Shown here: positions 6,759 to 22,950 of the stretch, piece after piece | Layout of the letters: each line of letters begins with the position of its first letter | Position numbering within the stretch: position 1 is the first letter of the stretch | Assembly (NCBI GenBank): GCA_025928545.1 | Contig: JAICJH010000001.1 | Coordinates: 124,001-188,000, forward strand | Source of the DNA: Bryobacteraceae bacterium | GTDB lineage: Bacteria > Acidobacteriota > Terriglobia > Bryobacterales > Bryobacteraceae | DNA length: 64,000 bases | Direction: 5' to 3' | Translations under genes and position numbers: made by a program | Notes under the pieces: generated by a model | Seen by the model: only the letters and a program-made list of their open reading frames with translations | What the model was told of the DNA's origin: nothing | Database searches by the model: none

Positions 6759-7114
6759 CCAAACAGTGACGGTATCATGCTTCCCCGCACACTCATGGTC
6801 TGCCCGACCACGAAAGTGCAGACCACGAAAGTGGAGCTTGACTCCGGAATGGCCTCATCATAGGTTCCACCGTTTGCGATTACGTCATGGTGACCTTTCC
6901 CGACGAAGCAGACATGACTGCCTGTCTGGTGGCTATCAACCCTCAGTACCTGGTGTACGAGAGGCCGGACACCACTTGATACCGCCTGAACCAGTGATAA
7001 GCTCGTTGCTGCGATGGATCTCATCGCACAGGGGCAGTATGTCTGCGCGCTGGCGGGCAGTGCTCTGTTGCCGTTTGGACAGCGTGAACAGGATATCGGG
7101 GTATTGAAAGAATC
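6759..7114. other. Intergenic region with a short tandem repeat
   Basis: This 356-base divergent gap lies between the xylanase and the epimerase-like gene. A 13-bp word (GACCACGAAAGTG) occurs at 6806-6818 and 6821-6833, period 15. Overlapping short frames exist on both strands but none has a recognisable motif or an SD. Promoters for both flanking genes should lie here; I could not pick convincing -35/-10 pairs. Confidence 0.5.
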
Positions 7115-8326
7115 ATGCGCATGAGACACATTTTCGTGTTTGCGGTATTAGTGGCCATGGCGACTGCTCGGCCTTCATCCGCGAAGCAATATGAGGCTGG
7201 CCAGGTGGGCGAGGTCATCCAGCTGAGGGACACGACCAGGCATATGGTGGTCTCTGTCATCCCCTCGATTGGGAATATGGTGACCGAGTTCTCGGTCAAC
7301 GGCAAGAACGTGTTGCGTTGGCCGTATACTTCGCTCGAAGATTACAAATCGCGTGGCGGGGGCTCCAGCGGCATCCCGTTTCTGGGGCCATGGGCCAACA
7401 GACTGGACGAAGACGCCTTCTACGCGAACGGCAAAAAATACAGCTTCGACATGGATCTCGGAAACGTGCGCGGAGCCATTCCCCTCCACGGGTTCCTGTC
7501 AACGACCGACAAGTGGCAGGTTGTGGAAGTAAAGGCCAACAACAAATCGGCATGGGTAACCAGCAGGCTCGAAGTCTGGAAACAGCCGATGTGGATGAAG
7601 CAGTGGCCATTCGCGCATACGATCGAGATCACTCAGCGGCTGCAGGATGGCGAACTGGAGGTCCAGACGAAAATCACCAATCTGAGCGCCGAGCCAATGC
7701 CCGTAGCCGTGGGATTTCACTCCTACTATCAACTCACCGATTCACCGAGGGAAGAGTGGACCGTCACCTTGCCCGTAAAAACCCGTTATTTGTTGACCGG
7801 TGCGAAGATTCCGAGCGGGGAAACCGAGATGGTTGAAAAGTTATTTCCCAATCGGCAGGGCACGCTGAAGGACTACAACCTCGACGACTTGTTCGGCGAT
7901 CCGGAGCGCGATTCTCAGGGTCGTTCCCATACCATCGTCAAAGGCAGGCAGCAGTCGCTGGACATCATGTTCGGCCCTAACTATTACGCCGAGGTGATCT
8001 ATTCACCGAACCCAAACGGCCAGGGTCTTGGGAGCAACGCTCCCCAAAATCCGAACCCGGGGGGGCGTGGGCCTGGTCAGCTGCCCGGACAGGGACTGGG
8101 GCGCGGTGGAAGCGGCGGGCTCGGACGTGGTGGGAGCGGTGGGATCGGGCGCGGCCGGGGTACGCCGAATCCGCTGGCAACGCCTAACTATATTTGCGTC
8201 GAGCCCATGCCCGGCATCACCAATGCCATCAACCTGGCGCAAAAGGGCATCGTCAAAAATCTGCAATCGGTTGCGCCCAATAAGACCTGGGAAGCGAGCT
8301 TTTGGGTGAAGCCCAGCGGGTTCTGA
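7115..8326 (+). CDS. Secreted aldose 1-epimerase (GalM)-like protein with Gly-rich insert
   Basis: 403 residues with a signal peptide (about 1-23). The body matches the galactose mutarotase superfamily: an early sugar-site strand (GIPFLGPWANRLD), IPLHGFLS with the conserved H, VGFHSYYQL with the second conserved H, and ICVEPMPG with the catalytic-type E near the C-terminus. These enzymes interconvert alpha and beta anomers of aldoses; export suggests action on sugars in the periplasm. An approx. 60-residue Gly/Pro/Asn/Arg-rich stretch (about 297-357, units like GRGGSGG) lies between the YAEVIYSPN strand and ICVEPMPG, where relatives have a short loop. The insert is in frame and both halves of the fold are intact, so the protein is probably functional. 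Part of the 3' end is repeated 1 kb downstream. Confidence 0.82.
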   Translation: MRMRHIFVFAVLVAMATARPSSAKQYEAGQVGEVIQLRDTTRHMVVSVIPSIGNMVTEFSVNGKNVLRWPYTSLEDYKSRGGGSSGIPFLGPWANRLDEDAFYANGKKYSFDMDLGNVRGAIPLHGFLSTTDKWQVVEVKANNKSAWVTSRLEVWKQPMWMKQWPFAHTIEITQRLQDGELEVQTKITNLSAEPMPVAVGFHSYYQLTDSPREEWTVTLPVKTRYLLTGAKIPSGETEMVEKLFPNRQGTLKDYNLDDLFGDPERDSQGRSHTIVKGRQQSLDIMFGPNYYAEVIYSPNPNGQGLGSNAPQNPNPGGRGPGQLPGQGLGRGGSGGLGRGGSGGIGRGRGTPNPLATPNYICVEPMPGITNAINLAQKGIVKNLQSVAPNKTWEASFWVKPSGF

Positions 8327-8962
8327 CCGAAGCGACAGCACGAACAGGCAACGTCAAAGATCGGCACGCTGGCTTTATACTCCGGGTCGCGTTTGTTGAC
8401 ATGAACCCCTGTGCTTCCGGTGACACAGGCTGGCGATCCACAATACTTTGGTGGAAGCGCCGCGCTGGGTTTTTCATTCTTTCGAAAAATTCCCGCCTGA
8501 AGCCTATTTGCCAGGAAGTCCTCTCGGGTCGTGTTGTCGGGGAGCAGGCCGACGGAAGGTGGCGAAGCCACCGAAGCCAGCGCGGCGTTCGCGCTCAATC
8601 CGGCCGCGCTGGAGCACCTTTTTAAAATCTTTTGGGGTGCGTAAAATAGCCGACCTGCCAGCCTTTGAAGTGCTTATTGAGGTGACCTCCAGAGAAGGGG
8701 CTGCCACAGGCTCCCGCCTCGCGGCATGGCGCACATACCCGAAAATCAACGTATCGTAAGATTCCTGAGGGACGTTGTCTTATGGAGCGTACGGTCGAAT
8801 TCACGCATGTGCTCTGTATGAGCGCTGCTGGTCGGAATCAACTATGAAATCAAGTGGATCTCGCCCATAACGGTTTTTCGCCAGGCAAACGATTGTACGC
8901 CTGGTGGCCTGGAAAGGAGATGTTTGATCATGGAAGCCGCGCGCCGAAGGTTGGACAGGCTC

Positions 8963-9052
8963 TTACATAATCCGACGTTATCCGGAGCCGGCCGCGCCGC
9001 GCTTAAGCGCATAGCTCAAACCATTAGCCTCCGATAACTCGGCATTATGTAA
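8963..9052. repeat. Imperfect terminal inverted repeat element (approx. 90 bp, MITE/REP-like)
   Basis: The left arm (8963-8987) begins TTACATAATCCGACGTTATC. The right arm (9029-9052), read on the other strand, begins TTACATAATGCCGAGTTATC. Both arms end CGGAG; they are 24-25 bases with a few mismatches and one gap. The 41-base interior holds the palindrome GCGCTTAAGCGC. The layout is that of a non-autonomous mobile element or a recombination site pair. There is no coding capacity, and target-site duplications were not evident. Confidence 0.55.
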
Positions 9053-9176
9053 TCGCAAACAGCATCCGCTCCCGCGGCGCCGTGTGCGGGCTCAGATCCG
9101 TCCCGGACCGCCGCGAAGAAAGACCACCTAATATCGGGAAAAGGGGGCCGCCGGTCAGCTCGGAATAAATTTCTCT

Positions 9177-9368
9177 GCTGGGGCGGGTGGGAGCGGCGGG
9201 ATCGGACGTGGTGGTAGCGATGGGATCGGGCGCGGCCGGGGTACGCCGAATCCGCTGGCAACGTCTAACTATGAGCCCGTGCCCGGCATCACCAATGCCA
9301 TCGACCTGGCGCAAAAGGGCCTCCTCAAGAATCTGCAATCGATTGCGCCCAATAAGGCTGGTGAATGA
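9177..9368 (+). pseudogene. Truncated duplicate of the 3' end of the aldose epimerase-like gene
   Basis: In frame the segment reads GGSGGIGRGGSDGIGRGRG, TPNPLATSNYEPVPGITNAI, DLAQKGLLKNLQSIAPNKAGE and stop. This is a close copy of the end of the gene at 7115-8326 (source bases about 8093-8290). Relative to the source it has lost nine bases, in frame, that encode the I-C-V just before the catalytic E-P. It ends early at a TGA (9366-9368) and has no upstream coding part. It cannot make an enzyme. The source copy is intact, so this is the derived copy. Similarity may extend weakly upstream to about 9153. Confidence 0.8.
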
Positions 9369-9531
9369 AACGACGCCGCGTGTGGCATCGGGCGGAGATT
9401 GGCCGCCAGATGGCGGGGCCACGGCGTGGAAACATGCCCGGAAACTGATCAGAGATACGTCCCGGCTGTTGTGATCCTTTGTCGCAGGAAACGCGCCTAC
9501 AAGCGCCGTTGCAGCGAGTACTAGGGCGCTT

Positions 9532-12291
9532 TCAACACGAAAGGATGCCTGCGAAAAGAGAGGTGACTCCGTGACGAACCTTGCTCTCCAACTCGTCCGA
9601 TGTCGGCGTCCGCAGAGATTCGCAGAGCGCGCCTTCTTGTGTTTGCAGGTTTTCCACGATTGCGCGGCTGTCGCCGTCTGGGCCCTTCCGAATCCCAGAG
9701 CGGAAAATGGCACGAAGCAACAAACCGCGTGACTCGTCCGTTTCCTCCCGACATGAATCAGCGGTGATCAGATAAGCGTGGAGCGACTGGCCTATCTCGG
9801 TCCATAATCCTGACGTATCTCGTCGGAGCGTCTGCTTCAAGAAAACAAGAGCACCGAATGCGCCTGTAGAAAGGCCATTGGGAAGAGGGATTCCATCGGG
9901 CCAGCGAAGCCAGGCTGCCCCCGCAAACTGGGCCGGAAAAGCAATCTTCCGAAGGATCTCAGCAGCCTCGGGTCGATTCAATCCAAACTTCGGCGTCGGA
10001 TTACCGTCCGGACCATAGACTAACGCGTCCGAGTGTTCATCGAAAAGAAAAGCTTGTCCGCCCGGAAAACAGTACACCTTTGCGTCTTCTTCTATGCGGT
10101 TCACGGCCGCCCCACTTCGCCGAAAGCGGGTTGTCTTGTGTCCGGGTTCGGGAACCGCGTCGCCGTATTGCTCATAGAAGGCGCCAATGTCATCCCACTG
10201 CAGCAAACCTGAATTCTGTGATTGAATCGACCGTTGCTGATCGCCAAACCGGTCATGAAACCGTTTCCATGCCTGAAAGCCGTTCTGCACCATGGTCGCC
10301 AGCCGCTCCTGGTCCGCATCGCTAAATGGAGAAGCTGAATTGTTGAGCATGAGATCCTGCAATTCATCCTGGGAGACGAGACACATCACCCGGCTGAAAA
10401 CCGCCTCAAACCGCTCAGGCTCTACCAACGTTCTAGTGATGAGCTTTAACTTTTCACGGGCGATCCGGAACGCGTCGGCTTCGCGACTGTCTTCGACCAC
10501 AACGGTGTCTACGATGATTGTTTCTCTCGATCCAAACCTGTGTACTCGGCCAACACGCTGTTCCATATCCATGGGATTCCACGGCACATCGATGTGAATT
10601 AGCCGCCGGGATACCTGTAGGTTGATACCCTCGCCGCCCGCCCTGGACGAAACCAGAAATTGGGGTCCATCCAAGCGTTTGAATGCCGCCACCTGCTCTT
10701 GGCGTTGCATGTCGTCTTGTCCGCCGATAATCATGGCTGGTGCCCGGCCCGTCGCTCGCTCTAAAAAGCGCGCGAGCGCAGACACAGTTTCGATGGGCTG
10801 AGCGAATAAAACTGCTTTTTCCCCCGCGACGCCCGCGAGCAGTTGGTTCCAAATGATCAGCCACTTGTCATCACCTGCCTTACAAACCAGATCGATTCCC
10901 TGCGAGATCAGGCTCTTGAGGCCAGCAGCCGAGCCTATATCGCGTGGATCGCCGGGAATGAAATCTTCAATGTCATCCACGTCGTCATCTCGATCCTGCC
11001 GGTCTATCTCAGCGTAGATTCGCTGATAGAGAGCATCTACAGCCTCGTCCTGCGAACCGAGCCTATATGGGCGAAGGGCAGCAAGCGCGTCGCGCAGAGT
11101 TGGATCGGAAGCCTTCCAATTTGCGCGAATGGCTTGTCTTGTCAAATACCCGAGGCCTGCCTGAGGGCTCGAAGCGGCCCACTGCATCGCCTGCGCACAA
11201 CGCCAGCCCGTGGCGCGGCGGCGAGCCTGCCCCATGGACGATTCGCGAGACGGCCGGTAGAAATCATGAATCGCATCCATCCAGGCGCGATGCTGTGGAC
11301 CAAGATTTACTATTAGTGGTTCGTTTACCTGACGGTTCGGAAAGACCGGATTTCCGTCCCAATCCCGAATATCGTCTTTGGTCCGGTAGATCACCCGGCC
11401 CGTAAGCATGCGGGAGTCCTCACCAGCGGATTTGAGCAAGTTCAGCAGATTCTCAAATCGGGTCTGATGCCCCTGATGTGGAGTACCGCTCATCAGAATT
11501 ACTCGTCCGTTGGTGCCCTGTCGTTCGATCAGTGCCTGGACAAGCTTATACGCCTGACTTGGTTTGCCACCATCCTGCTCCCAGGCAGACAAATGATGGC
11601 ACTCATCAACAATGATTACGTCCCACGGCTTCGACTCGGCGATGCTGTCGAAATGCCCTCTATGCACAGCTCGGTGAATCGAAGCCACGACCATGCTGTC
11701 TGTCAGTCGGGCATCGGCACCCTGCGCAGACCAGCGCCGGAAGGGTAGGTTCAAACGATCAAACTCCGTCAGAACGTTGTTTACCAGCCGCGCCGGGGCC
11801 AAATAAAGGATCCGCAGCTCTGGGCGCTGATCCAGCAGCGCACGAACAATTAATCCAGCCTCGACGGTCTTACCCAATCCGACTTCGTCTGCAATCATTA
11901 CCCGCCGAAGGGATTCGTGTTGTAGAACGTGCTGGACCAGACTGACTTGGTGAGACAGTGTTTCGACCTCGCGAGCATCCATACGCCGCTGCGGATCTTC
12001 GCAGATGAGAAAATGCGCCTGGAGTCTGCCCACACTTCTGCGGCTTTGAGAGGGCCAATTCTCACCGGCTGGCAGCGCCATCAAGAGCGATGCCGGCGAC
12101 GTTAAGGCTCGGACGCGGCTCGCCTGTAGGCCAACCTCCACGCATCCATCCGTCGTCTCCTGATCCGACCAAAAACGTCGGGGCGGAGCGACAATGTCGA
12201 TAGCATCCAGACCGAAGTCGTCGTACTCACGTAACAGCGCATACGGCAGATTCGATTCGGGCTTCAACAACAAACATCCTGTTTTCATCAT
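9532..12291 (-). CDS. SNF2-family DEAD/DEAH helicase/translocase of putative defence island
   Basis: 919 residues. The helicase motifs are in order: motif I ADEVGLGKT (134-142), motif II DECHH (229-233), motif III MSGTPHQG (267-274), motif V SSRAGGEGINLQ (548-559), motif VI QRVGRVHRFG (578-587). This is the superfamily 2 SNF2/RapA-like architecture: an ATP-driven double-strand DNA translocase rather than a strand-separating helicase. DrmD of DISARM and RapA are family relatives. The C-terminal third (about 650-919) has no motif I recognise; no nuclease or methylase motif was seen. The start overlaps the stop of the upstream dynamin-like gene (TAATGATG), so translation is coupled; the second ATG (12288) could also be used. 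Probably acts on DNA together with the GTPase. Confidence 0.88.
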   Translation of the reverse strand: MMKTGCLLLKPESNLPYALLREYDDFGLDAIDIVAPPRRFWSDQETTDGCVEVGLQASRVRALTSPASLLMALPAGENWPSQSRRSVGRLQAHFLICEDPQRRMDAREVETLSHQVSLVQHVLQHESLRRVMIADEVGLGKTVEAGLIVRALLDQRPELRILYLAPARLVNNVLTEFDRLNLPFRRWSAQGADARLTDSMVVASIHRAVHRGHFDSIAESKPWDVIIVDECHHLSAWEQDGGKPSQAYKLVQALIERQGTNGRVILMSGTPHQGHQTRFENLLNLLKSAGEDSRMLTGRVIYRTKDDIRDWDGNPVFPNRQVNEPLIVNLGPQHRAWMDAIHDFYRPSRESSMGQARRRATGWRCAQAMQWAASSPQAGLGYLTRQAIRANWKASDPTLRDALAALRPYRLGSQDEAVDALYQRIYAEIDRQDRDDDVDDIEDFIPGDPRDIGSAAGLKSLISQGIDLVCKAGDDKWLIIWNQLLAGVAGEKAVLFAQPIETVSALARFLERATGRAPAMIIGGQDDMQRQEQVAAFKRLDGPQFLVSSRAGGEGINLQVSRRLIHIDVPWNPMDMEQRVGRVHRFGSRETIIVDTVVVEDSREADAFRIAREKLKLITRTLVEPERFEAVFSRVMCLVSQDELQDLMLNNSASPFSDADQERLATMVQNGFQAWKRFHDRFGDQQRSIQSQNSGLLQWDDIGAFYEQYGDAVPEPGHKTTRFRRSGAAVNRIEEDAKVYCFPGGQAFLFDEHSDALVYGPDGNPTPKFGLNRPEAAEILRKIAFPAQFAGAAWLRWPDGIPLPNGLSTGAFGALVFLKQTLRRDTSGLWTEIGQSLHAYLITADSCREETDESRGLLLRAIFRSGIRKGPDGDSRAIVENLQTQEGALCESLRTPTSDELESKVRHGVTSLFAGILSC

Positions 12292-14663
12292 TATGCACCG
12301 GCTGTCGCAGTCTGAACCCCTGGGACATTTCGCAAGAGCGCAGCTGTCTGCTCCAGAATTGGTTTTCGCTTTTGCGCATCACTCCGCAATCTATACTGTT
12401 CCTGGGAAGCAACAATCGCCTCAGCCATCGCTTCCAAAGGATTCTGATGCTCCTGTAGCGTCTGCAGAATTTCCTGCTCGACTTCTCCGAAGAACCTGGT
12501 CAGAATACGCAAGGCAGGTTTTTCGGCCGCGTCAGGTATTTCGTCAGCTAATTGCTCGAAAAGCGCGAGAATCCGATTTTTCACTCCCGGGCCAACATCT
12601 GCATTGTCATCGACAAACCGTTTGCACTTCATTCGGATGGGCCCGTCAATCGCATTGATCAAATCAGTCGAATTCTTCTCTCTGACCTCCTTAATCATCT
12701 CTCGTCCGACGGTCTTCAGTCGCGCAGCATCGATCCTGATACTTTCCTTCTGTGCTTCAACCACGCTTTGTTGCACGCGGGCACCCTGTTCTCTTGCCCA
12801 TGCAGCGGTTTCCTCGACAAGCCCATAGCACTGGTCGGCATACTCATTCGTCCGCTTTCGAATATCTTTCAGGATCTCTTGTCCCCACGCTTCCGCGAGT
12901 GGCTCTTCGCAACGCAATGCGAACTCTTGTTGCAAATTGACGTCGGTCGCTCCAGAGAACCTGCCACCCTTTCGAACCGATGCTCGCAGGGTCGCCCAGT
13001 GAGCCGTTCCAAGTCGCCTGAGGTATTTGCCGATTTGATTCCTCGACCGCTCTTTGCCGGACTTGACCAAGTCCGATATCCGCTGCGGTGCGGTTTGGCG
13101 CAGAAACTCCCGATACTGCCCCTGCAGCGTTGCAAACTTGGTCCGCAGGGGCCGAATAAAAGTTTCCAGATCCTTTCGAAGTTGCTCAATTTCCTCCGCG
13201 AGATGCGCTTCGTCCGTCCACTGCGCCTCCACAAGCCTAATCTCGGATACGGTTCCATCCCTCAGCGATTGAAAGTACGTTTCCACTCTACTCGCCCGCT
13301 CCAGTTCCTGAGTTGCACGGATCTCGCCGAGTGACGTTGCGATGGCGGGGATATTCGTCTCGCCTACATCCTGAAGTCGCGCCCCGTCATCAGAAACCAG
13401 CGCCTCAAATTCAACAGCAGAAACTGGATGGACGCGGAGAGTCTGAAGCAATTTGTCGATTACTTCCTGCTTCGCATGGTGTAACTCGCCGTCGTCTTTC
13501 CAAAGGGCTTCTAGTTCGTTCCGGAGCTGATTTCTGATAAAAGGGACCATCTCTTCGCAGACTGCGGCGAAGTGCGCAGCGAATGTTCGGCTCTTATCGG
13601 CAAGTCGACGGGTGCGTGCAATATCGTCCACCTTGGTGATTGCAATTAATAGAACTGGATTCCCTTCGGGCTCATCGGACGTATGAAGGAGCCGCGTTAG
13701 AAACTCACTCTGCCGCAGCAGCATCGCCACAGGTTCCGTAACTCCCCGATGGTCGACAACAAGCACAAGAACCTTTGCACTCTCCCGGATGAACTTCCGA
13801 GTGATCTCAGGTCGGGGATCGCCAATCACCCCCAAACCCGGAAGATCCACCAAAGTCACACCCGATTGAAGCAGAGGCGAGTTCCACCAAACTGTAGCTT
13901 TTCGGATGAGGGGCGCAAGAAAACCGCAGGCATGATCGTTCAGAACCGAAGCCAGTTCAGCCGGGGTTCCTTCACGAACAAATCGTTCACCTCTCTTGGC
14001 CAAGGTGAGAGCGGTCCGTATTCTCCCAATCCGTTCGGCGTCCTCATGGTTTGCCTGTGTTGCCCATGGACGGCCGTGACCCAGCGCGTCCCGGAGTCCG
14101 TCGACGAGGTATCGAATCGTCACATCGGAAGACTGCTTCCCGGTGATAAGCAGTTCCGCAACGCTCTTCGTATCGCGACGCTGGCGTTCGCGGGTACTCA
14201 GTTCATCCTCCTCCGGTTCCGTGAGCATATCGATGAACAGAGTCTCGCCTTCCTCGTCAGTCAACTCCGCCAAGTGCTCTCCGGGAGCTCCCAACTCGAA
14301 TTTCCAGGAATTCTCCAAGCCGAACACCAACTGATTCAAGCGTTCGCGGCTGTGGTATTCGGCTTCGATTTTCGGGCTCGCGCCGTAGCGCACTGTGAGT
14401 GCCTGCGCCGTGAGTGGTCCAACGCCCCCCGACGGGACTACAGCTTGGCCGCCACCAGTGAGAGCGTTTATCAGGGTACTCTTCCCGACGCCCGAATTAC
14501 CAAGGAAGCAAACGGAAAGCTCGTCGCCCATCAGGGAGTCTGCCTTTTGGAGGCGTGCGCAATCTCGGTCGAACTCCTCAACTTTTTCGGCACAATGCCG
14601 CTCAAGAAAAGGCTTGGCCTGTGTTTTATACCAATGCACTAGACTTTGCGCACTCTTCGTCAT
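12291..14663 (-). CDS. Dynamin-like large GTPase of putative defence island
   Basis: 790 residues from ATG 14663, chosen because GAGAGGAG lies 8 bases upstream; an in-frame ATG at 14720 has no SD and adds 19 unlikely residues. GTPase motifs: G1 GNSGVGKST (55-63), G2 region VGPLTAQ with T85, G3 DLPGLG (273-278), G4 TKVD (343-346). The long G2-G3 spacing, the size and the helical coiled C-terminal half (about 480-770, many E/R/Q) fit bacterial dynamin-like proteins. No clear transmembrane segment is visible. Known bacterial dynamins remodel membranes, and some act in phage defence; pairing with a DNA translocase is unusual. The stop overlaps the helicase start by one base. The next upstream gene is 309 bases away, so this pair may have its own promoter. 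Confidence 0.87.
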   Translation of the reverse strand: MTKSAQSLVHWYKTQAKPFLERHCAEKVEEFDRDCARLQKADSLMGDELSVCFLGNSGVGKSTLINALTGGGQAVVPSGGVGPLTAQALTVRYGASPKIEAEYHSRERLNQLVFGLENSWKFELGAPGEHLAELTDEEGETLFIDMLTEPEEDELSTRERQRRDTKSVAELLITGKQSSDVTIRYLVDGLRDALGHGRPWATQANHEDAERIGRIRTALTLAKRGERFVREGTPAELASVLNDHACGFLAPLIRKATVWWNSPLLQSGVTLVDLPGLGVIGDPRPEITRKFIRESAKVLVLVVDHRGVTEPVAMLLRQSEFLTRLLHTSDEPEGNPVLLIAITKVDDIARTRRLADKSRTFAAHFAAVCEEMVPFIRNQLRNELEALWKDDGELHHAKQEVIDKLLQTLRVHPVSAVEFEALVSDDGARLQDVGETNIPAIATSLGEIRATQELERASRVETYFQSLRDGTVSEIRLVEAQWTDEAHLAEEIEQLRKDLETFIRPLRTKFATLQGQYREFLRQTAPQRISDLVKSGKERSRNQIGKYLRRLGTAHWATLRASVRKGGRFSGATDVNLQQEFALRCEEPLAEAWGQEILKDIRKRTNEYADQCYGLVEETAAWAREQGARVQQSVVEAQKESIRIDAARLKTVGREMIKEVREKNSTDLINAIDGPIRMKCKRFVDDNADVGPGVKNRILALFEQLADEIPDAAEKPALRILTRFFGEVEQEILQTLQEHQNPLEAMAEAIVASQEQYRLRSDAQKRKPILEQTAALLRNVPGVQTATAGA

Positions 14664-14701
14664 GCGGTACACTCCTCTCGATTCGTAACAGCTTCCGGGA
14701 A

Positions 14702-14720
14702 ATGGTTCTCTAGAAACCAT
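14702..14720. promoter_or_regulatory. Inverted repeat centred on TCTAGA upstream of dynamin-like gene
   Basis: ATGGTT (14702-14707) and AACCAT (14715-14720) flank CTCTAGA. The site lies 39-57 bases before the GTPase start codon, where an operator could overlap promoter or leader. Confidence 0.25.
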
Positions 14721-14839
14721 TTGCGATTGGAAGTATTAGCCGACAGCCGATTTTTTGATTGGAACACAGCCCGTCGGTCCGTTACATTGGTCTCACCTTT
14801 TGCGCGAGCAACGCGAGCAACTCAACAAAAGCATCGGCT

Positions 14840-14857
14840 TCCGACTTGGAAGTCGGA
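14840..14857. promoter_or_regulatory. Perfect inverted repeat, candidate operator or terminator stem
   Basis: TCCGACTT (14840-14847) and AAGTCGGA (14850-14857) are perfectly complementary with a 2-base centre. It sits 177-194 bases upstream of the dynamin-like gene start on its strand. A T-run does not directly follow, so a dimeric repressor site seems as likely as a terminator. Confidence 0.35.
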
Positions 14858-14972
14858 CATGTCTGTGTGTTGCCCTCATTTGCAGCGTCGAATCCAGTGA
14901 AGCTAAGTAGTGTGCGTTCAGACATTCAGCCGCGGAAGAGCCGATTGTACAGCCTCAGAATGTGCGACGTGC

Positions 14973-15929
14973 TCAAGCGGCACAAACCTTAGGGCTTCGG
15001 TATTCGAGTGCCTTGGCCGAAAACTCGGTGCTGAAAGCAACTTCGGCTTGCAGGTGCTGCTCCGAAACGGATTCGAAATTATACGTCGCTCTTCTCCACA
15101 AATCGGGCCCTTCAAGAATCGCAAGCCCGGCATCGGTCTTGAGATTCCATGATTGATCAAACCGAAAATAGCGGTAATGATATCGAGCAGCAAAAACGGA
15201 ATCTTCAGCGAGATACAAGGTGAGGGTGTACCCAGCTGGCAGCAAATGCCCGATTGCCGTTTCTATGGCTAATCTTACATCCGATTGCGTACCGTATTCG
15301 CTCCCCTCTTTGGCGAAACCAGTGTAGAGTCTCAACTGGGTTTCCCGATTTTTTTTAGGGAGGCGATCGAGCAAGCTGAGCAAGCCGCTCCGCCTTTCAG
15401 CCTTGCACGTCAGGAGATCGCGGCCCGCGTATCTGTCCATGATTGTCATGGTGTCAGCATGTTGTACGAGCCGCGAAAAACAGATATCCCAAATCTTATC
15501 GCAGGATGTTCGCTCCGGGAACTCGCCCGCACGCGTCTCCCACAATCCCTTCACAACTTCTGACAGGTTGAGGCAGTCGATGCGGCAGGCCTCGCAGCCG
15601 AGTTCTTCGTCTTTGACAGCCACGATATCCTTCAGCCCCTTTCCTATGAACCAATCTGTGCTTACTAATGACAACTGAACTTGCTTGACAAGACTCGCCA
15701 GCGGCCCAACAAACTGACGTCGGTTAACCGCGAATGCGACGGCTTCTTGCCATCTTTTTCTTTGGTTCTGAGGTAAGCAGCCGACAGCTGCCGCGAAGGG
15801 TTGAGGAACGACTAGAATTCCGTGCTCACGCCAAAAACGGATCACTAGGTCTGTCTGGGACAAACGCATCGCAGGATCGATATGTAATAGCGCCAGGGCC
15901 TCTGGTTGCACAGTAAATCTGGCAATCAC
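14973..15929 (-). CDS. ATPase-associated protein with PLD-like C-terminal features (island)
   Basis: 318 residues starting at GTG 15929, which overlaps the ATPase stop as GTGA, so the two are co-translated. I do not recognise a named family with confidence. The N-terminal part (1-105) is helical with RFWREHGILVVPQPF. The middle has a Cys cluster (C112, C115, C119). From about 150 the pattern H-A-D-T-M-T-I-M-D-R-Y (157-167) and, near 248-270, R-Y-H-Y-R-Y-F-R-F-D with W261 and DAGLAI recall the strand-His-x-Arg and G-L-D-I segments of PLD-fold domains paired with ATPases (weak inference). It is probably the effector or partner of the DUF3696-type ATPase. No signal peptide or membrane segment. 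Confidence 0.72.
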   Translation of the reverse strand: MIARFTVQPEALALLHIDPAMRLSQTDLVIRFWREHGILVVPQPFAAAVGCLPQNQRKRWQEAVAFAVNRRQFVGPLASLVKQVQLSLVSTDWFIGKGLKDIVAVKDEELGCEACRIDCLNLSEVVKGLWETRAGEFPERTSCDKIWDICFSRLVQHADTMTIMDRYAGRDLLTCKAERRSGLLSLLDRLPKKNRETQLRLYTGFAKEGSEYGTQSDVRLAIETAIGHLLPAGYTLTLYLAEDSVFAARYHYRYFRFDQSWNLKTDAGLAILEGPDLWRRATYNFESVSEQHLQAEVAFSTEFSAKALEYRSPKVCAA

Positions 15930-17410
15930 GATTGCACCGGAAACATTTCTCGATAGGATTCCTCAAAAAATCCGTCGGGCCACTCGTCCACAAACTCTCC
16001 GGACGAATCCATTCGCAAACGCGAGATCGCGGCTCCATTCCGGCCGGCGGGTTGCACATACAAAACAGAAACAGCGTTCGGTTCGAGCTTACCTTCGCGT
16101 ATCCGCCGCTGCAAACGAAGAATAAGCGCTTCGCTATGGGTTTCGACAATCCACTGATTGCCGGTTGGTCTTGACCTTGCTGCTGACCGGTCAGCCGACA
16201 GGCGCGTTGTCGCAATAAGGAAATCTGCCAAATGCGCCTGCAAGCGTGGATGTAAATGAATTTCCGGCTGTTCAACGCATATAACCTGTCCAACCGAAAT
16301 CAAGCCCTGAACAACGATAGGCAGAAGTTGACCAATTCCAAAACCAACATCAGACGGCGCCACATCGACTAGCGACCGCGAATCGGTCAGAGTCATGGTC
16401 ACCAGTTCTCCCATCACATCATCCGCCAATAGTTTTGTTTTGAGCGTGTAAGGGATCTCGAATTTGCCGAACCATTGATTGATCAAACGCGTGAGTGGTG
16501 CTGCACGCCTGTGAATAACTTGTGAGGTGAACTGCCCCGCACGGCCCACCGTTGACTCATTCCGCCCTGAAATCAGATAGTGCCGTTCAGGTGCCTCCCG
16601 TAGCGGTCCGAGGTATTGAATATTCTTGATCAATTCCGTTAGCTCCGAATTCACTCCTTCCATCGGAGACGCGGCACCGCCAAGATACCGCTGGTAGCTC
16701 CAGAATTCTTCAGATCTGGCTGATGCTTTCTTCGGTATGAGCCGCGACGGCAGGAGGCCCCCACCCGCCATACACGCATCGGCAAGGAATTGTTTGACCT
16801 GTTCTCGTTCAAGATGGGGCCGAATCCCGGGCAAAGGCCGCCTCTCGGCGCGCTCTACAAAATATGCGCTCAACGATTCAACGGATGATTCATCTGCCCA
16901 TTCAAACAGAGCATTCGGTATTATCTCGTCCACATCTTCGTCTGGAACCGAGATCATCCGCTTCAGAGCAATTCGAAAATCAGACTCGCCCGACAACTCC
17001 ATTACGACATCACTTAGTATCGGCGAGCCACTTCCGGCCGCGGCATCCTCGGATCGGAAAACCATCCTGGCCGAACGAACTGCCAGAGGCGGAAACCTGA
17101 ATCTTGTAGGACGAATTTCCCTAGGCATGAGGCGCCCATCGAACGTCACCCCAATTGTGAGCGCCTTCTGCAAGTCATGCGAAAACAGAAGCGACCGAAA
17201 ACTCCCGAGGTCAATGAGATCGCCCCTCGGAATCAGCGAGAAGTCCTCGCCGCCGGACCTGCCGATCGATTGTTGTAAAAGCAACAGCGCCTGAATCAGC
17301 GAACTTTTCCCGCTGGAGTTCGGCCCATAGATGAGTGTGATGGGCGCGAGTTCTGGGGTTTGGGCTACGCCAAACGGCTTGAAGTTATGCACTTCCAGCG
17401 ATCTGATCAA
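15926..17410 (-). CDS. DUF3696-type ABC/AAA ATPase (OLD/RecF-like) of putative defence island
   Basis: 494 residues from TTG 17410, preceded by GAGGAG five bases upstream. Motifs: N-terminal strand SLEVHNFKPF, Walker A GPNSSGKSS (29-37), Q-loop LLLLQQS (42-48), ABC-signature-like GFGIGQ (356-361), Walker B VICVEQPEIHLHP (376-388), H-loop ETHSE (423-427). The last 50 residues (SVLYVQ ... FVDEWPDGFFEE) are the DUF3696-type tail. There is no TOPRIM nuclease domain at the C-terminus, unlike OLD nucleases and GajA, so nuclease or other output must come from a partner. Such ATPases act as dimeric sensors in several anti-phage systems. First gene of the island; no promoter could be pinned down. Confidence 0.88.
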   Translation of the reverse strand: MIRSLEVHNFKPFGVAQTPELAPITLIYGPNSSGKSSLIQALLLLQQSIGRSGGEDFSLIPRGDLIDLGSFRSLLFSHDLQKALTIGVTFDGRLMPREIRPTRFRFPPLAVRSARMVFRSEDAAAGSGSPILSDVVMELSGESDFRIALKRMISVPDEDVDEIIPNALFEWADESSVESLSAYFVERAERRPLPGIRPHLEREQVKQFLADACMAGGGLLPSRLIPKKASARSEEFWSYQRYLGGAASPMEGVNSELTELIKNIQYLGPLREAPERHYLISGRNESTVGRAGQFTSQVIHRRAAPLTRLINQWFGKFEIPYTLKTKLLADDVMGELVTMTLTDSRSLVDVAPSDVGFGIGQLLPIVVQGLISVGQVICVEQPEIHLHPRLQAHLADFLIATTRLSADRSAARSRPTGNQWIVETHSEALILRLQRRIREGKLEPNAVSVLYVQPAGRNGAAISRLRMDSSGEFVDEWPDGFFEESYREMFPVQS

Positions 17411-17530
17411 GATTGCTCCTCATCGCCGTTTGAGCACGACGACCAATCTGCAAGCGGATTCGGAATCTTAAGTTGCAGTGCAGACTTCGCTACAGTGTAT
17501 CGCGCAGACGGGAGTTATCCTGGAAAAAGT

Positions 17531-17549
17531 TCCGTCTTCAAGAGACGGA
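17531..17549 (-). terminator. Hairpin followed by T-run on minus strand
   Basis: TCCGTCT and AGACGGA form a perfect 7-bp stem with a 5-base loop. On the minus strand the stem is followed by ACTTTTTCC, a weak intrinsic terminator shape. It would insulate the island from transcription entering from the right. Confidence 0.4.
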
Positions 17550-17643
17550 GGTCGTGAATCCACAGGCAGGGCTTGACCCAGCGTCCTTAAATGGTTTCAT
17601 TTAACAAACAATTAAGGCAGTTATTTAGCAGTGCAATCAACCA

Positions 17644-17848
17644 TCATGAAAGGCATTCCCCGTCATCTGAATGCGGAAACAGCATCTCACCGCGATCCGA
17701 AATTTCTTTAAAGTGCTCGGGACGCGACACGCCGTGGTTCTCAATCCGGCATTCTCCGTTCGCGGCGAGCGCTATCTTTAACAGTTGTCGATATCCCCGA
17801 GCGTGCGTTCCTCTCGCGAAATAAATCGCGGGGCGAAGCCCTTTTTTC
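17644..17848 (-). CDS. Doubtful small ORF (67 aa)
   Basis: Reading frame MKKGLRPAIYFARG... ending HSDDGECLS. The codon choice looks coding-like and a terminator-like hairpin lies downstream at 17531-17549. There is no SD before the ATG, and the frame stays open upstream into Arg/Gly-rich sequence that looks non-coding. It may be the remnant of a decayed gene. No family recognised. Confidence 0.2.
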
Positions 17849-18302
17849 ATCCGAGTCCGGCGAATTTCAAAGAAACCCGAAATCTGAGTGACAGCAAAAT
17901 AAAATCCCCCTATCCGCCTGAACCCAAACGCCTTACCCGCAAAATCCCCCCTCCCCCAACCCCGATTTCTAGACACCATCATGTAGAGTCGAATCGGATA
18001 ATGACCATGCGACGCTCACAACCGATGAAAACCGCCTCCCCGAAACTCGCCGCCCCACCGACCGCGACGACCAAAACCACCTGGGCCATCCCCACCCACC
18101 CATCCAGTCCGTCGCCCCTCGCCCAAGAAGCAAAAAAAATGCCCGTACCAAGCGAACCCGCCACCCTGAACAAAACAAAGGAACTCCCAAAATTCACGAA
18201 CCCATTTAAAGGCCTGGCGAACCCGGGAAAACGCCCCCACCACCCCCTTTTGAGCCACCCGAACCCCATTCCGAACCCGCGCGAGGCCACCCGCCGAAAC
18301 CA

Positions 18303-18327
18303 CCCTGGCCCTCCCCAAACGTTCCCC
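18303..18327 (-). other. G-quadruplex motif
   Basis: On the minus strand four G-runs (GGGG, GGGG, GGG, GGG) are separated by loops of 7, 1 and 3 bases, which fits the canonical G3+N1-7 pattern. It lies about 30 bases upstream of the possible -10 box of the ABC operon, so it could influence its transcription. Sequence pattern only. Confidence 0.55.
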
Positions 18328-18444
18328 TTACGCGCGCAACCCTTGCACCCTGGTATGATGGTTGGCGCTGAGGGTTCAGCCCTGCAACTCCGTAACCCTC
18401 CAGCTGGTTATCCGTCAAATAAAACTGTTACCTCCACTAACTCT

Positions 18445-19431
18445 ATGATCAAAGTCGAAGGTCTGACCAAGCGATACGCTCGCAACTACGCGGTCAAGAA
18501 TATTTCCTTCGAAGTCGGCAAGGGCGAGATTGTAGGCTTCCTCGGCAAGAACGGCGCTGGGAAAACCACCACCATGCGCGTCCTCACCTGCTTTCTGCCC
18601 CCCACTTCGGGCAAAGTCAGCGTCGCCGGTTTCGATGTCCTGGAGCAATCGCTCGATGTCCGCAAAAACATCGGCTACCTCCCCGAAACTCCTCCCGTTT
18701 ACCCCGAAATGGAGGTCAACGAGTACCTCTCCTTCGTCGCCAAACTCAAAGGCATCTCCGGCGCCGACGTGGCCAAACGGGTCGATGAAGTCATCGAGCG
18801 CACCGCCCTCGGCAGCGTCCGCAACACCATCATCGGCAAGCTTTCCAAGGGTTACCGCCAGCGCGTCGGCATCGCTCAGGCCATCATCCACAACCCGCCG
18901 GTGCTCATTCTCGACGAGCCTACTTCCGGTCTCGATCCCGAGCAGCAGCGCGAAGCCCGCCAGCTGATCGCCAGCCTCTCCGGCGATCACACCATCATTC
19001 TCAGCACCCACATCCTGTCGGAAGTCGAACAGTCGTGCAGCAAAGTCATCATTATTAATGCGGGTGAAATTGTCGCGGTGGATTCCGTCGCCAACCTGCA
19101 TCACCGCCGCCAGGGTGGCGAAATGGTGGCCGTACAGGTCAAGGGAGCTACCGAAAATCAGGTGCGCCAGAAGCTGGAACAGGTGAGCGGCGTCGCCAAA
19201 GTCATGGCCCGCGAAGCCCCCGAAGGCCTCGTCGCCTTTGAAATCGAAAGTATGGAACAATATGCCGTTCGTCCCGATCTCGCCCGTGCCATCGTGCAGT
19301 CCGGCTGGGATCTGACCGAACTCCGCACCGTCGGCGAATCGCTCGAAGAAATCTTCCTCGATCTCACGAAATCCGAAAAGACTGCGTCCCCCGCGGCTTC
19401 GGAAGCCACCGTTATAAAGGGAGACGCCTGA
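18445..19431 (+). CDS. ABC transporter ATP-binding protein (GldA-like)
   Basis: 328 residues from ATG 18445, where the conserved MIKVEGLTKRY starts; upstream in-frame sequence is low complexity and rejected. Walker A GKNGAGKTT (34-42), Q-loop YLPETPPVYP (78-87), signature LSKGYRQR (133-140), Walker B LILDEPT (154-160), D-loop SGLDP, H-loop LSTHILSEVE. A C-terminal regulatory extension (about 215-328) is usual for this family. It energises the permease encoded next and matches GldA of Bacteroidetes gliding loci in order and type. In Acidobacteria such operons are common without proven gliding; substrate unknown. Its stop overlaps the permease start (TGATG). Confidence 0.9.
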   Translation: MIKVEGLTKRYARNYAVKNISFEVGKGEIVGFLGKNGAGKTTTMRVLTCFLPPTSGKVSVAGFDVLEQSLDVRKNIGYLPETPPVYPEMEVNEYLSFVAKLKGISGADVAKRVDEVIERTALGSVRNTIIGKLSKGYRQRVGIAQAIIHNPPVLILDEPTSGLDPEQQREARQLIASLSGDHTIILSTHILSEVEQSCSKVIIINAGEIVAVDSVANLHHRRQGGEMVAVQVKGATENQVRQKLEQVSGVAKVMAREAPEGLVAFEIESMEQYAVRPDLARAIVQSGWDLTELRTVGESLEEIFLDLTKSEKTASPAASEATVIKGDA

Positions 19432-20198
19432 TGAGAAACGTACTCACAATCTGCGGTAAAGAAGTTAGAGCCTACTTCACGTCGCCCATAGCCTACCTCT
19501 TAATGGGCATGTTCGGGCTCATCACCGGCTTCATGTTCTACAGCGCCACAGTCTACTTCATCAATGCCGGAACCCAGCAGCAAATGTCCGGCCAGACTGG
19601 CGCCATGAGCATTAACGATTACGTCATCGCTCCCCTGCTCGGCAACGCCGGAGTCATTGGTCTGTTCCTCGTTCCCCTGATATCCATGCGATTGTTCGCC
19701 GAAGAGAAACGCGCCGGCACCATCGAACTCCTGCTGACTTCCCCGCTCAGCGATTGGGAAATCATCCTCGGCAAATGGCTGGGCGCGATGACCATGTACC
19801 TTTGCGTGATCGGTATGTCGATGATCAACATCGCCCTGCTCTTCGCCTGGAGCACGCCCGACTGGCGGCCCATCCTGACCGGCTACCTCGGCCTCATCCT
19901 CCAGGGCGCGACAGTCCTCGCCATCGGAACCTTTATCTCGACAACGACTCGCAATCAGATCATCGCCGGCGGCACCACTTTCGCCGTTTGCCTGCTGCTC
20001 TGGGTGCTCTCCTGGGTCAGCAACTACAGTGACACCGCCTTCGGCAAGGCCATCGCATATTGCTCCATTCTGGTTCACTTCGAACCGTTTTCGAAAGGCA
20101 TCATCGATACCAAAGACGTGATCTTCTATCTCTCTGCCATCTTCCTGGGCCTGTTCCTGACCGCCCGGTCGCTCGAATCTTTAAGGTGGAGGGCGTAA
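19431..20198 (+). CDS. ABC-2 type permease (GldF-like)
   Basis: 255 residues with six predicted membrane segments, starting MRNVLTICGKEVRAYFTSPIAYL. The motif RLFAEEKRAGTIELLLTSPLSDWEIILGKW after the second membrane segment is typical of ABC-2 permeases of the gld/CcmB-like group. An SD (GGGAG) lies inside the end of the ATPase gene and the start overlaps its stop by one base. It forms the membrane channel with the GldA-like ATPase, and the next gene supplies the extracytoplasmic partner. Confidence 0.9.
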   Translation: MRNVLTICGKEVRAYFTSPIAYLLMGMFGLITGFMFYSATVYFINAGTQQQMSGQTGAMSINDYVIAPLLGNAGVIGLFLVPLISMRLFAEEKRAGTIELLLTSPLSDWEIILGKWLGAMTMYLCVIGMSMINIALLFAWSTPDWRPILTGYLGLILQGATVLAIGTFISTTTRNQIIAGGTTFAVCLLLWVLSWVSNYSDTAFGKAIAYCSILVHFEPFSKGIIDTKDVIFYLSAIFLGLFLTARSLESLRWRA

Positions 20199-20200
20199 CC

Positions 20201-21565
20201 ATGGCCGAAACATCCTGGATGAAAACTCGTCAGACCAAATACGGCGCCTACGCAGCCGTCTACATCCTGATTATTCTGGCCGTGCTCGTTGTCGGTAACT
20301 GGCTCGCCAGCAGCCACAACAAATCGGTCGATGTCACCTCCAACAAGCAATACACGCTTTCGGATCAGACAAAAAAGGTAGTCGGCAATCTCAAGTCCGA
20401 CATCAACATCTATTACTTCGATCAGTCCGCCGGTTACGACCGCGCCCGCGACATTCTGGATCGCTACGCCAATATTTCTTCGAAGGTGAAGATCACCTAC
20501 GTCGATCCCGATAAGAAGCCCGATATCGCCCGCGTCGAAGGCGCGCGCGCCATGGGCGACGTGATTGTCGATAACGGCGTGAAGAAGGAAACCGCCAAGT
20601 CCCTCACCGAAGAAGAGCTCACCGGAGCCATCATCCGCACCATCAAAACCGGCACTCGCATGGCTTGTTTCGTGCAGGGTTCAGGCGAGCACAAGATCGA
20701 CGACACCGGCCGTGACGGCTACTCGACAGTCAAGACCGCGCTCGAAAGGAACAACTACAAAACCCAGTCGATCTCGCTTCTTGAAAAGCCCGATGTTCCC
20801 TCGGACTGCACCATCGTGGTTGTCGGCGGCCCCAAGCGCGATTACCTCCAGCCCGCCATTGATGCTCTGAAGAAGTTCGTCACCAATGGTGGCCGCCTCA
20901 TTATCAATCTCGATCCCGCTCTGAATCTGCCTCCACCCGATGGCAAACTCGGAGACACCCCCGGCCTCGTCGCCATGGCTGCCGACTGGGGCGTCACCTA
21001 TAAGGGCGACGTCGTGCTCGATATGAGTTCCGCCAGCCAGATGTTTGGCCAGCTGTCTCCGGTCGTCGGCACCTACGGCACTCATCCCATCGTCCGCGTC
21101 ATGCAGGACAACGCCTCGGTGATGCCGCTGTCGCGCAGCATGGAAGCCAAGTCGCCCGCCGAGACGCTCTTCTCGTCTACTGCGGACAGCTACTCGCTGA
21201 CCGATCCAAAGCTCCCCATCCATCAGGCCGATATTGAAAAGGGCGCCAAGGGCCCGTTCGTTCTCGGAGCCGCCGCCACCATCGGCACCGGCGATAAGGC
21301 CGGCCGTGTCGTCATGGTCGGCAGTTCCGACTGGATGTCGAATTTCATTCTCAGCGCCCCCATCGCCAACCGCGATCTCGCGCTCAACATGATGAACTGG
21401 CTGACCTCCGATGAGGATCTGATCTCGATTCGCCCCAAAGAAGCCTCCGACCGCCGCCTGCACATTACCGGCACCGGCATCCGCATGCTGTTCTTCGTAA
21501 GCGTCATCGGGATTCCGCTGTTCGTGATCCTCTCCGGAGTTTCCGTTTGGTGGAAACGAAGGTAA
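20201..21565 (+). CDS. GldG-like ABC auxiliary protein (ABC_transp_aux domain)
   Basis: 454 residues. ATG 20201 is chosen because GGTGGAGGG lies just upstream and it begins two bases after the permease stop. An N-terminal membrane anchor (about 18-37) is followed by a large extracytoplasmic region with the VDVTSNKQYTLSDQT opening of GldG-type proteins, an internal ITYVDPDKKPD and a ThuA-like VVVGGPKRDYL section. A second membrane segment sits at 430-450, then WWKRR. The order ATPase-permease-GldG-DUF4340 is conserved in many phyla; it may export or sense a cell-envelope ligand. The longer frame from 20060 is an overlap artefact. Confidence 0.87.
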   Translation: MAETSWMKTRQTKYGAYAAVYILIILAVLVVGNWLASSHNKSVDVTSNKQYTLSDQTKKVVGNLKSDINIYYFDQSAGYDRARDILDRYANISSKVKITYVDPDKKPDIARVEGARAMGDVIVDNGVKKETAKSLTEEELTGAIIRTIKTGTRMACFVQGSGEHKIDDTGRDGYSTVKTALERNNYKTQSISLLEKPDVPSDCTIVVVGGPKRDYLQPAIDALKKFVTNGGRLIINLDPALNLPPPDGKLGDTPGLVAMAADWGVTYKGDVVLDMSSASQMFGQLSPVVGTYGTHPIVRVMQDNASVMPLSRSMEAKSPAETLFSSTADSYSLTDPKLPIHQADIEKGAKGPFVLGAAATIGTGDKAGRVVMVGSSDWMSNFILSAPIANRDLALNMMNWLTSDEDLISIRPKEASDRRLHITGTGIRMLFFVSVIGIPLFVILSGVSVWWKRR

Positions 21566-21580
21566 ATCGCTGAACCAACC

Positions 21581-22891
21581 ATGCTGAAACCACACGGTCT
21601 CATCACTGCCGCCGGCGTGCTCGCCATCCTGGGCGGCTATGCCTGGTGGGCCAATCGCCACCCGGTCTCCGATACCAACACCACAACTCCGCCCGCGCCA
21701 AAAATCCTGGCCCTGACGGCGGATCAGATTACCAACATCAAAATTGCAAAGACCGACGAAGACCCGGTCGTCCTGAACAAGACTGGCGATAAGTGGGTCA
21801 TCGCAGCCGCCAAGCCCCTGGCGGCCGACAACGACGCTGTCAGCACTCTGACCGGAGCCTTGTCGCCTCTGACTTCGGACCGCCTCATAGATGAGCATCC
21901 GCAAGGCCTGACCGCCTTCGGTCTCGATAAGCCGACCGCGGAACTCGACGTCACCACTAAGGGCGGCAAAACCCAAAAGCTCCTCTTCGGCTCCGACACG
22001 CCCTCCGGCAGCGACACTTACGTCAAGCTGGATTCAGACCCGAAGGTCTACAGCATCGCCTCCGGAACGAAATCGAACTTCATCAAAGCCGTCAACGATC
22101 TTCGCGATAAGCGTCTCCTCACCCTGAACTCGGATAAGATCACCTCCGTCACCCTGAACGCCAAAGGCGCGCAGATCGAATTCAACAAGAACTCCGGTGG
22201 CGACTGGCAGATCACCAAACCGAAACCGATCCGCGCCGATGGCTCCGCGGTCGACGATCTCGTCGGCAAACTCAAAGACGCGAAGATGGATCTCACCACC
22301 ATCCCGACCCCCGCCGAATTCTCAGCCGCCCCCAAGGTCGGCTCGGCGACGTTCGTGGACGACAAGGGTCCCCAGTCGATCGAAGTCCATAAAGCAAAAG
22401 ACAGCACCATCTACGCGAAATCCTCGGCAGTCGATGGCATCTACAAGGTTGCCGCCGACGTCGGCACAGCCGTCGATAAGAGTGTCGAGGATTTCCGTAA
22501 CAAGAAGCTCTTCGACTTCGGCTTCACCGATCCTTCGAAAGTAGATCTCGGCGGCAAGCTTTACGAGAAGACCGGCGACAAGTGGTTCAACGGATCCGCT
22601 CAGATCGACTCCGCGAGTATCCAGGCAGTCGTAGACAAACTTCGCGATCTGTCGGCCACGAAGTTCTCGGATAAGATTGCCGGCTCCCCCGCCCTCGCCA
22701 TTGCAGTCACCTGGGGCGAGAAGAGCAAGGTCGATAAAGTCACCATCAATAAGAATGGCGCCGACTACATCGGCGTGCGCGATGGCGATGCCACCGCCTA
22801 CGGCCTCGATGCGAAGGCGTTCGACGATCTGCAACAGACCATCGGCGCGATCAAGCCGGCTCAGACCCCGAAGGCTGATACTAAGAAGTAG
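21581..22891 (+). CDS. DUF4340 domain protein of the gld-like ABC operon
   Basis: 436 residues with an N-terminal membrane anchor (about 6-24), then DUF4340 repeats. Landmarks are the recurring LTADQITNIKI and LNSDKITSVTL strands, FGLDKPTAELDVTT and LLFGSDTPSGSDTYVKLDSDPKVY. DUF4340 proteins typically close GldA/F/G-like operons and sit at the outer face of the membrane, function unknown. It follows the GldG-like gene by 15 bases. Very Lys/Asp-rich, with a low-complexity C-terminus (PAQTPKADTKK). Confidence 0.87.
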   Translation: MLKPHGLITAAGVLAILGGYAWWANRHPVSDTNTTTPPAPKILALTADQITNIKIAKTDEDPVVLNKTGDKWVIAAAKPLAADNDAVSTLTGALSPLTSDRLIDEHPQGLTAFGLDKPTAELDVTTKGGKTQKLLFGSDTPSGSDTYVKLDSDPKVYSIASGTKSNFIKAVNDLRDKRLLTLNSDKITSVTLNAKGAQIEFNKNSGGDWQITKPKPIRADGSAVDDLVGKLKDAKMDLTTIPTPAEFSAAPKVGSATFVDDKGPQSIEVHKAKDSTIYAKSSAVDGIYKVAADVGTAVDKSVEDFRNKKLFDFGFTDPSKVDLGGKLYEKTGDKWFNGSAQIDSASIQAVVDKLRDLSATKFSDKIAGSPALAIAVTWGEKSKVDKVTINKNGADYIGVRDGDATAYGLDAKAFDDLQQTIGAIKPAQTPKADTKK

Positions 22892-22950
22892 ATGCCGCGA
22901 GCCTCCGCCAACGATGTCCTGCCGGCCCCGTGCCGTCGGGAGGGCCTCCT

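Follow-up and report, generated by a model that had tools for sequence, protein, structure and literature searches.

A dynamin-like GTPase and an SNF2-type ATPase form a recurrent accessory gene pair beside a separate ATPase cassette in a Bryobacteraceae genome

A 64,000-nucleotide stretch of the Bryobacteraceae bacterium assembly GCA_025928545.1 (contig JAICJH010000001.1, positions 124,001 to 188,000; hereafter the window) carries four large consecutive open reading frames (ORFs) on its minus strand, flanked by an ABC transporter operon on one side and an aldose epimerase gene on the other. Two of them, encoding a dynamin-like GTPase and an SNF2-type superfamily 2 (SF2) ATPase, recur as a unit in related genomes, co-diverge and keep their ATPase and GTPase motifs. 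We read the locus as an accessory site occupied by two independent cassettes of two genes each, with the dynamin-SNF2 pair acting as an antiviral or anti-plasmid pair, an interpretation to which we give about even weight. The dynamin-like gene lies at 12291..14720 (minus strand; 809 amino acids, aa, as an ORF, 790 aa from the probable start at 14663, which stands behind GAGGAG and is preferred to 14720), and the SNF2 gene at 9532..12291 (minus strand; 919 aa). The other cassette consists of a AAA_21/DUF3696 ATPase gene (15926..17410, minus strand; 494 aa) and the gene of its 318-aa partner (14973..15929, minus strand). The first-pass annotation had correctly placed all four genes on one strand at these coordinates and described them as coupled in two pairs; the overlaps are real, GTGA between the ATPase and partner genes and TAATG between the dynamin and SNF2 genes. 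Its gene classes are borne out by Pfam for the ATPase, the dynamin and the SNF2 protein, whereas the PLD-like assignment of the partner has a motif behind it and no database support.

The dynamin-SNF2 pair was traced by protein searches across 257 genomes of the order, with at most three candidates scored per genome among the matches listed. Five copies, the window's included, were found in 4 of the 257 genomes, with the two genes adjoining and in the same order in all five. Apart from the window's own genome, full-length dynamin relatives were confined to G306 (81%), G434 (42%) and G424, which has two copies (47% and 38%); weak or partial matches appeared in ten further genomes. An independent SNF2 search recovered the same five loci, all at 46% identity or higher. 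Below them lay a gap: the next match, in G339, reached 38% over residues 65-615 (316 bits), and the remainder scored at most 154 bits at 27-37% identity, with 32 genomes matching at 1e-25. At each of the four other loci (L021 to L024) both genes lie on one strand, with the dynamin gene first. The distance to the SNF2 gene is 3 nt in L021 and 679 nt in L024; the two genes overlap in L022 and adjoin in L023, where the SNF2 reading frame is broken close to Walker A.

The extent of the pair is delimited by comparison with L021, its nearest relative. A blastn alignment of 75% over 5187 columns covers window positions 9524..14701, which we take as the cassette boundary, and no further alignment to L021 was found in window positions 6001-19000 at 1e-5. 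No match to the ATPase or its partner was found within 14-20 kb at each of L021 to L024. The partner was found in only 2 of the 257 genomes, the window's and G462, and so is not in the other three genomes with the dynamin-SNF2 pair. In G462, the ATPase and partner genes stand together (L088:717-3383; 47% and 23% identity) on a 6.9-kb contig in which no dynamin or SNF2 match was detected. The first-pass annotation had proposed the four genes as one candidate defence system. Consecutive genes on the same strand favor a system in which the two pairs would work together, as does a GC content below that of the flanks in both pairs (0.52-0.56 vs 0.58-0.59), but each pair recurs without the other, which largely refutes it, and the pairs differ slightly in GC (0.52-0.54 for the ATPase pair, 0.55-0.56 for the dynamin pair) and are separated by more than 250 nt (252 nt, or about 309 nt counted from the likelier dynamin start). 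We therefore regard a joint system as very improbable; what looks temptingly like one four-gene "system" can in fact consist of two neighboring cassettes. Between the pairs, no promoter-like match was found, and one terminator-like match was present on the minus strand (shuffled sequences: mean 0.6, standard deviation 0.9).

Both genes of the dynamin-SNF2 pair are under purifying selection. Between the window and L021, the ratio of nonsynonymous to synonymous differences (pN/pS) was about 0.14 for the dynamin gene and about 0.10 for the SNF2 gene; no dN/dS estimate was relied on because synonymous changes were saturated in this comparison. When the five copies were compared in pairs, the identities of the dynamin and those of the SNF2 protein correlated at r 0.98 (10 non-independent comparisons). 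The dynamin GTPase motifs G1, G3 and G4 (P-loop GKST, DLPG and T..D) were present in all five copies, and the SF2 motor motifs DECHH, SGTPHQ and QRVGRVHRFGS in 5/5 SNF2 rows, with GLGKT in 4/5, L023 being frame-broken there. Comparison of 42 ORFs flanking the five loci gave no cross-locus match at 1e-5; the copies sit in unrelated neighborhoods, and the conserved housekeeping setting that would have spoken against the annotated defence role was not seen.

The SNF2 protein comprises an N-terminal region of ~100 aa, a helicase core at ~105-640 and a C-terminal region at ~640-919. Pfam recognized SNF2-rel_dom (7.6e-9) and Helicase_C (1.4e-17), both above cut-off. The best PADLOC matches of the core were HmaA, DrmD, BrxH and DpdE, and its scores against these families and RapA, taking the best model of each in PADLOC and NCBIfam, were 129-172 bits, far below the NCBIfam cut-offs of 500-610. 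By sequence, the nearest solved protein to the core is RapA (112 bits). In L024, the most distant pair, the SNF2 ORF (L024:2832-6257) is extended at its N-terminus by ~220 aa, for which Pfam gave no convincing match.

The dynamin-like protein matched Dynamin_N at 1.8e-12 (48 bits vs a Pfam cut-off of 27). Compared with solved proteins, its best profile matches were the P-loops of Der/EngA GTPases, followed by the bacterial dynamins 5owv (1.5e-4) and 2j68 (0.0068); in NCBIfam and at the top of the solved-protein list, most matches were to the P-loops of GTPases of the Der, Era or YsxC type. No nuclease domain was recognized in either protein of the pair, so we would not expect it to act by cleaving DNA, although the last ~280 SNF2 residues, which have no family match, could hide such a domain.

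These features are consistent with a compact accessory pair that is probably antiviral, in which the SNF2 motor would handle DNA and the dynamin-like GTPase would serve as effector. In the mechanism that we envisage, the SNF2 protein, as a double-stranded DNA translocase of the RapA/DrmD/DpdE/HmaA kind, would engage foreign DNA or DNA that is being actively transcribed or replicated, and this engagement would switch on the dynamin GTPase, which would assemble as the effector. The dynamin might then stabilize or remodel the membrane and so delay phage release, or it might sequester DNA or a protein complex in an Mx-like manner. One precedent is B. subtilis DynA, which acts at the membrane in phage infection and delays phage lysis (PMC8844932). 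Despite a paddle-like region, LeoA showed no lipid binding in vitro (PMC4159319). Mx proteins are reported to be antiviral dynamins (PMC11789081).

Two loci link the components of the pair to defence-type genes. The first, L025:1306-15518 (minus strand), is a complete Hma operon with a dynamin-like GTPase between HmaB and HmaA. The operon scored 1712 bits for HmaA, 1070 for HmaB and 1049 for HmaC in PADLOC, whose Hma models do not include this dynamin. The GTPase (773 aa; Dynamin_N and DUF7605) is 27% identical over 333 aa to the window dynamin. The HmaB-HmaA interval of L025 also holds a 583-aa ORF of unknown family, and the operon adjoins an RtcR-like CARF regulator. The second locus, L123:1102-3765, encodes an SNF2 helicase fused at its N-terminus to a PLDc_2 domain, which has a DrmC-like match. 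Of the SNF2 cores of the order at which no dynamin was seen, this one is the nearest (35% identity; view of 16 kb, with the contig ending 1.1 kb downstream of the gene). Because of its N-terminal PLD domain, L123 has an effector-like domain where the window pair has a dynamin, in cis in the fusion and in trans in the pair; its alignment to the window SNF2 protein stops near residue 611 of the latter. A bolder and tentative version, which we consider less likely than not, would make the two genes a complete, minimal immune system: an SNF2 DNA motor would control a dynamin effector with no methylase or recognized nuclease, and DNA sensing would be coupled directly to dynamin assembly, the dynamin replacing the PLD domain of the nearest related helicase.

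Several observations weigh against an antiviral role. RapA, a housekeeping partner of RNA polymerase, scores about as well against the SNF2 core as the defence helicases do. Only five copies are at hand, from one family and from draft genomes, one of them (L023) with the broken SNF2 frame. Among 11 inspected loci with a strong HmaA (L025 and ten others, some cut by contig ends), L025 alone has a dynamin; the ten others had other genes, or none seen, between HmaB and HmaA, which suggests that this slot takes varied cargo. No paddle-like hydrophobic segment stands out in the hydropathy profile of the window dynamin, whose best 19-residue means (1.2-1.6) fall mostly in the GTPase core, and this weakens the membrane version of the mechanism. 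Finally, the linkage to known defence genes that the first-pass annotation had suggested scoring was not apparent among the neighbors compared: 20 of the 37 flanking ORFs of L021 to L024, compared with PADLOC, included no clear defence gene. A Uma2 protein matched PDC-S03 (68 bits), a Ser/Thr-kinase-like protein matched PD-T4-6 (330 bits), which we judge to be a generic kinase match, and one further match was weak (24 bits). In ten flanking ORFs compared with Pfam, nine of them among those 20, a PIN domain and Uma2 were recognized, the rest falling into metabolic, transport or unknown families. The kinship to RapA and the lack of clear defence neighbors among the ORFs scanned would also suit an accessory device for chromosome or transcription maintenance, a RapA-like remodeler with a GTPase. 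We consider such a device unlikely, if still a serious competitor, as it fits poorly with the rare and patchy spread (4/257 genomes), the absence of a fixed neighborhood and the distant dynamin within an Hma operon.

The dynamin-SNF2 combination matches no named bacterial defence system tested, in agreement with the PADLOC check proposed in the first-pass annotation, in which the four genes matched no named system. One of the closest likenesses is to Hma: HmaA is the top PADLOC match of the window SNF2 protein (147 bits) and a relative's Hma operon contains a dynamin-like GTPase. The HmaA match, however, covers residues 99-623 only, in contrast to the 1712 bits of HmaA in L025; HmaB and HmaC were absent among the 25 best PADLOC matches of each window gene, and no methylase, DUF1156 or DUF499 was found by Pfam in the four genes. 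With DISARM (DrmD), Dpd (DpdE) and BREX (BrxHI-II), the likeness is again the SNF2 core. DrmD reached 164 bits vs a cut-off of 610 and DpdE 172 bits vs 500, and no partner gene of these systems was recognized among the four window genes. DISARM has a methylase among its drm genes; the absence of a methylase and of a TOPRIM domain from the four genes (Pfam), as the annotation had reported, stands. For the phospholipD_antiphage family NF042964, the window SNF2 protein and L123 both scored at most 100 vs a cut-off of 1100.

Eleos comprises LeoA plus the LeoBC dynamins. It and B. subtilis DynA share with the window a bacterial dynamin-like GTPase, but the LeoBC match of the window is limited to 32.7 bits in the P-loop region and the LeoA match to 13.5 bits (PADLOC), and the window has one dynamin with no second, partnered by an SNF2 motor; the Leo proteins are themselves dynamins (PMC4159319). 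NsnB belongs to Menshen, and the window ATPase resembles NsnB (186 bits). Menshen combines a DUF262 gene with an OLD/TOPRIM nuclease (PMC10952713), whereas neither domain was found in the four window genes and the ATPase partner is an HxR protein. From RapA, the window SNF2 protein differs in score (143 bits vs a cut-off of 576), in its coupling to a dynamin and in its accessory distribution. Membership of Hma, DISARM, Dpd, Eleos and Menshen was rejected on scores below cut-offs and signature genes that were not found.

No description of the dynamin-SNF2 pair was recognized among the titles and abstract openings listed in a literature search that drew largely on sources other than subscription papers and bioRxiv, and neither "dynamin" nor "GTPase" occurs in the main text of a BREX survey (PMC12839542). 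According to the first-pass annotation, a described system combining a dynamin with an SNF2 protein is not known; this holds in that no named system matched, but a dynamin does lie within the L025 Hma operon, outside the PADLOC Hma models. Since no named system tested matches and no paper on the pair was found, we place it with SNF2-centered accessory modules; a categorically new defence pair is the bolder reading. The annotation's view of a candidate defence system is plausible, as a role that we infer. If the pair does act in phage defence, surveillance of DNA by an SNF2 motor would be tied directly to a dynamin-like GTPase, a bacterial counterpart of Mx-type antiviral dynamins, and two genes would make a system small enough to dissect.

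Beyond the order, the window's genome stood alone at strong E-values in two draws from the phylum (297 and 396 genomes) and one from the class (299), one of which also yielded seven weak matches; as these draws share genomes and no more than 2-3 candidates were scored in each genome, misses are possible. Among at least 36 contig loci found by P-loop patterns, dynamin matches were short or weak and no SNF2 match was found at 1e-3, a result with little bearing on absence elsewhere. Viral contigs yielded one locus with the dynamin query, at which no SNF2 match was found, 17 candidate loci with the SNF2 query and no occurrence of a DNA motif from the C-terminal part of the dynamin.

In 72,556 plasmid records, no match was found to the window dynamin at 1e-5 or to the L024 dynamin at 1e-3, and the L025 dynamin had one match, within a three-dynamin cluster. 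No annotated dynamin stood beside three plasmid SNF2 relatives (27-31%). A further reading makes the dynamin-SNF2 pair cargo or machinery, for stability or transfer, of an unrecognized mobile element. It would agree with the varied surroundings, with the occurrence of two divergent copies in a single genome and with a GC content lower than that of the flanks; the missing plasmid matches to the window and L024 dynamins speak against it, as do DNA similarity to L021 that stops at the genes themselves and the lack of any integrase, transposase or relaxase match among the four genes (Pfam, PADLOC, NCBIfam), and we consider it quite improbable. Two plasmid loci are recorded as separate observations: three successive "dynamin family" genes adjoining a TnpB-IS605 element on a Calditerrivibrio plasmid (L108:6189-12025), and a DUF499 protein, three unknowns and an SNF2 protein 31% identical to the window SNF2 core on an Aminobacter plasmid (L066:404-10640).

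The second cassette would be a separate ATPase-effector module, a DUF3696 ATPase with an HxR partner, like those found beside type I restriction genes. Its ATPase matched AAA_21 (3.1e-21) and, just above cut-off, DUF3696 (23.5 vs 22) in Pfam, and NsnB (186 bits), PDC-M55A (181) and HEC-03B (158) in PADLOC; the motifs GxNSxGKS, EQPE and ETHSE are invariant in seven of seven aligned ATPases. The partner had no Pfam or PADLOC match at E<=10, and no solved structure resembled it, with a single chance match at E<=10. The PLD superfamily motif is HxK(x4)D, and the partner, which contains HYRYFRFD (H-x-R-x4-D), is putatively PLD-like by this motif only. D(P/R)(Y/F) and a single H-x-R occur in all six aligned partners, with D165, H251 and R253 invariant. 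A similar DUF3696/AAA ATPase followed by a ~300-aa HxR protein was found at four of four distinct plasmid loci, in Methylocella (L087:5986-8591), Vibrio (L140:5526-7882), Azotobacter (L141:5277-7891) and Deinococcus (L139:5022-7897); type I restriction genes adjoin the pair at the first three and other genes at the last. None of the recurrent ~300-aa HxR partners tested had a Pfam or PADLOC match. The plasmid partners are related to one another. Their kinship to the window partner, with 15-21% aligned identity and a BLAST E of 0.88 against the L087 partner, is weak, and it is argued from gene order, the ATPase (24-32%) and the shared D and HxR positions. In Azospirillum (L086), the ATPase was present with no recognized partner.

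On the right, the four genes are flanked by an ABC transporter/GldG-like operon and a nicotinate phosphoribosyltransferase gene (17785..24249, plus strand; Pfam). Of 19 genomes of the genus, the window's own counted, 18 had the GldG-like protein at 1e-50, and in none of eight same-genus stretches around the gene of this protein (9-20 kb each, with unequal upstream reach) was an island gene the best match of any ORF. On the left, the edge is marked by the tail of the aldose epimerase gene and its copy (8105..9365, plus strand). The decayed repeat that the first-pass annotation had noticed here is real: the Gly-rich 3' end of the epimerase gene (8105-8293) is duplicated at 9186-9365, between that gene and the island, at 89% and 94% in two stretches by repeat search and at 89% over 189 nt by blastn.

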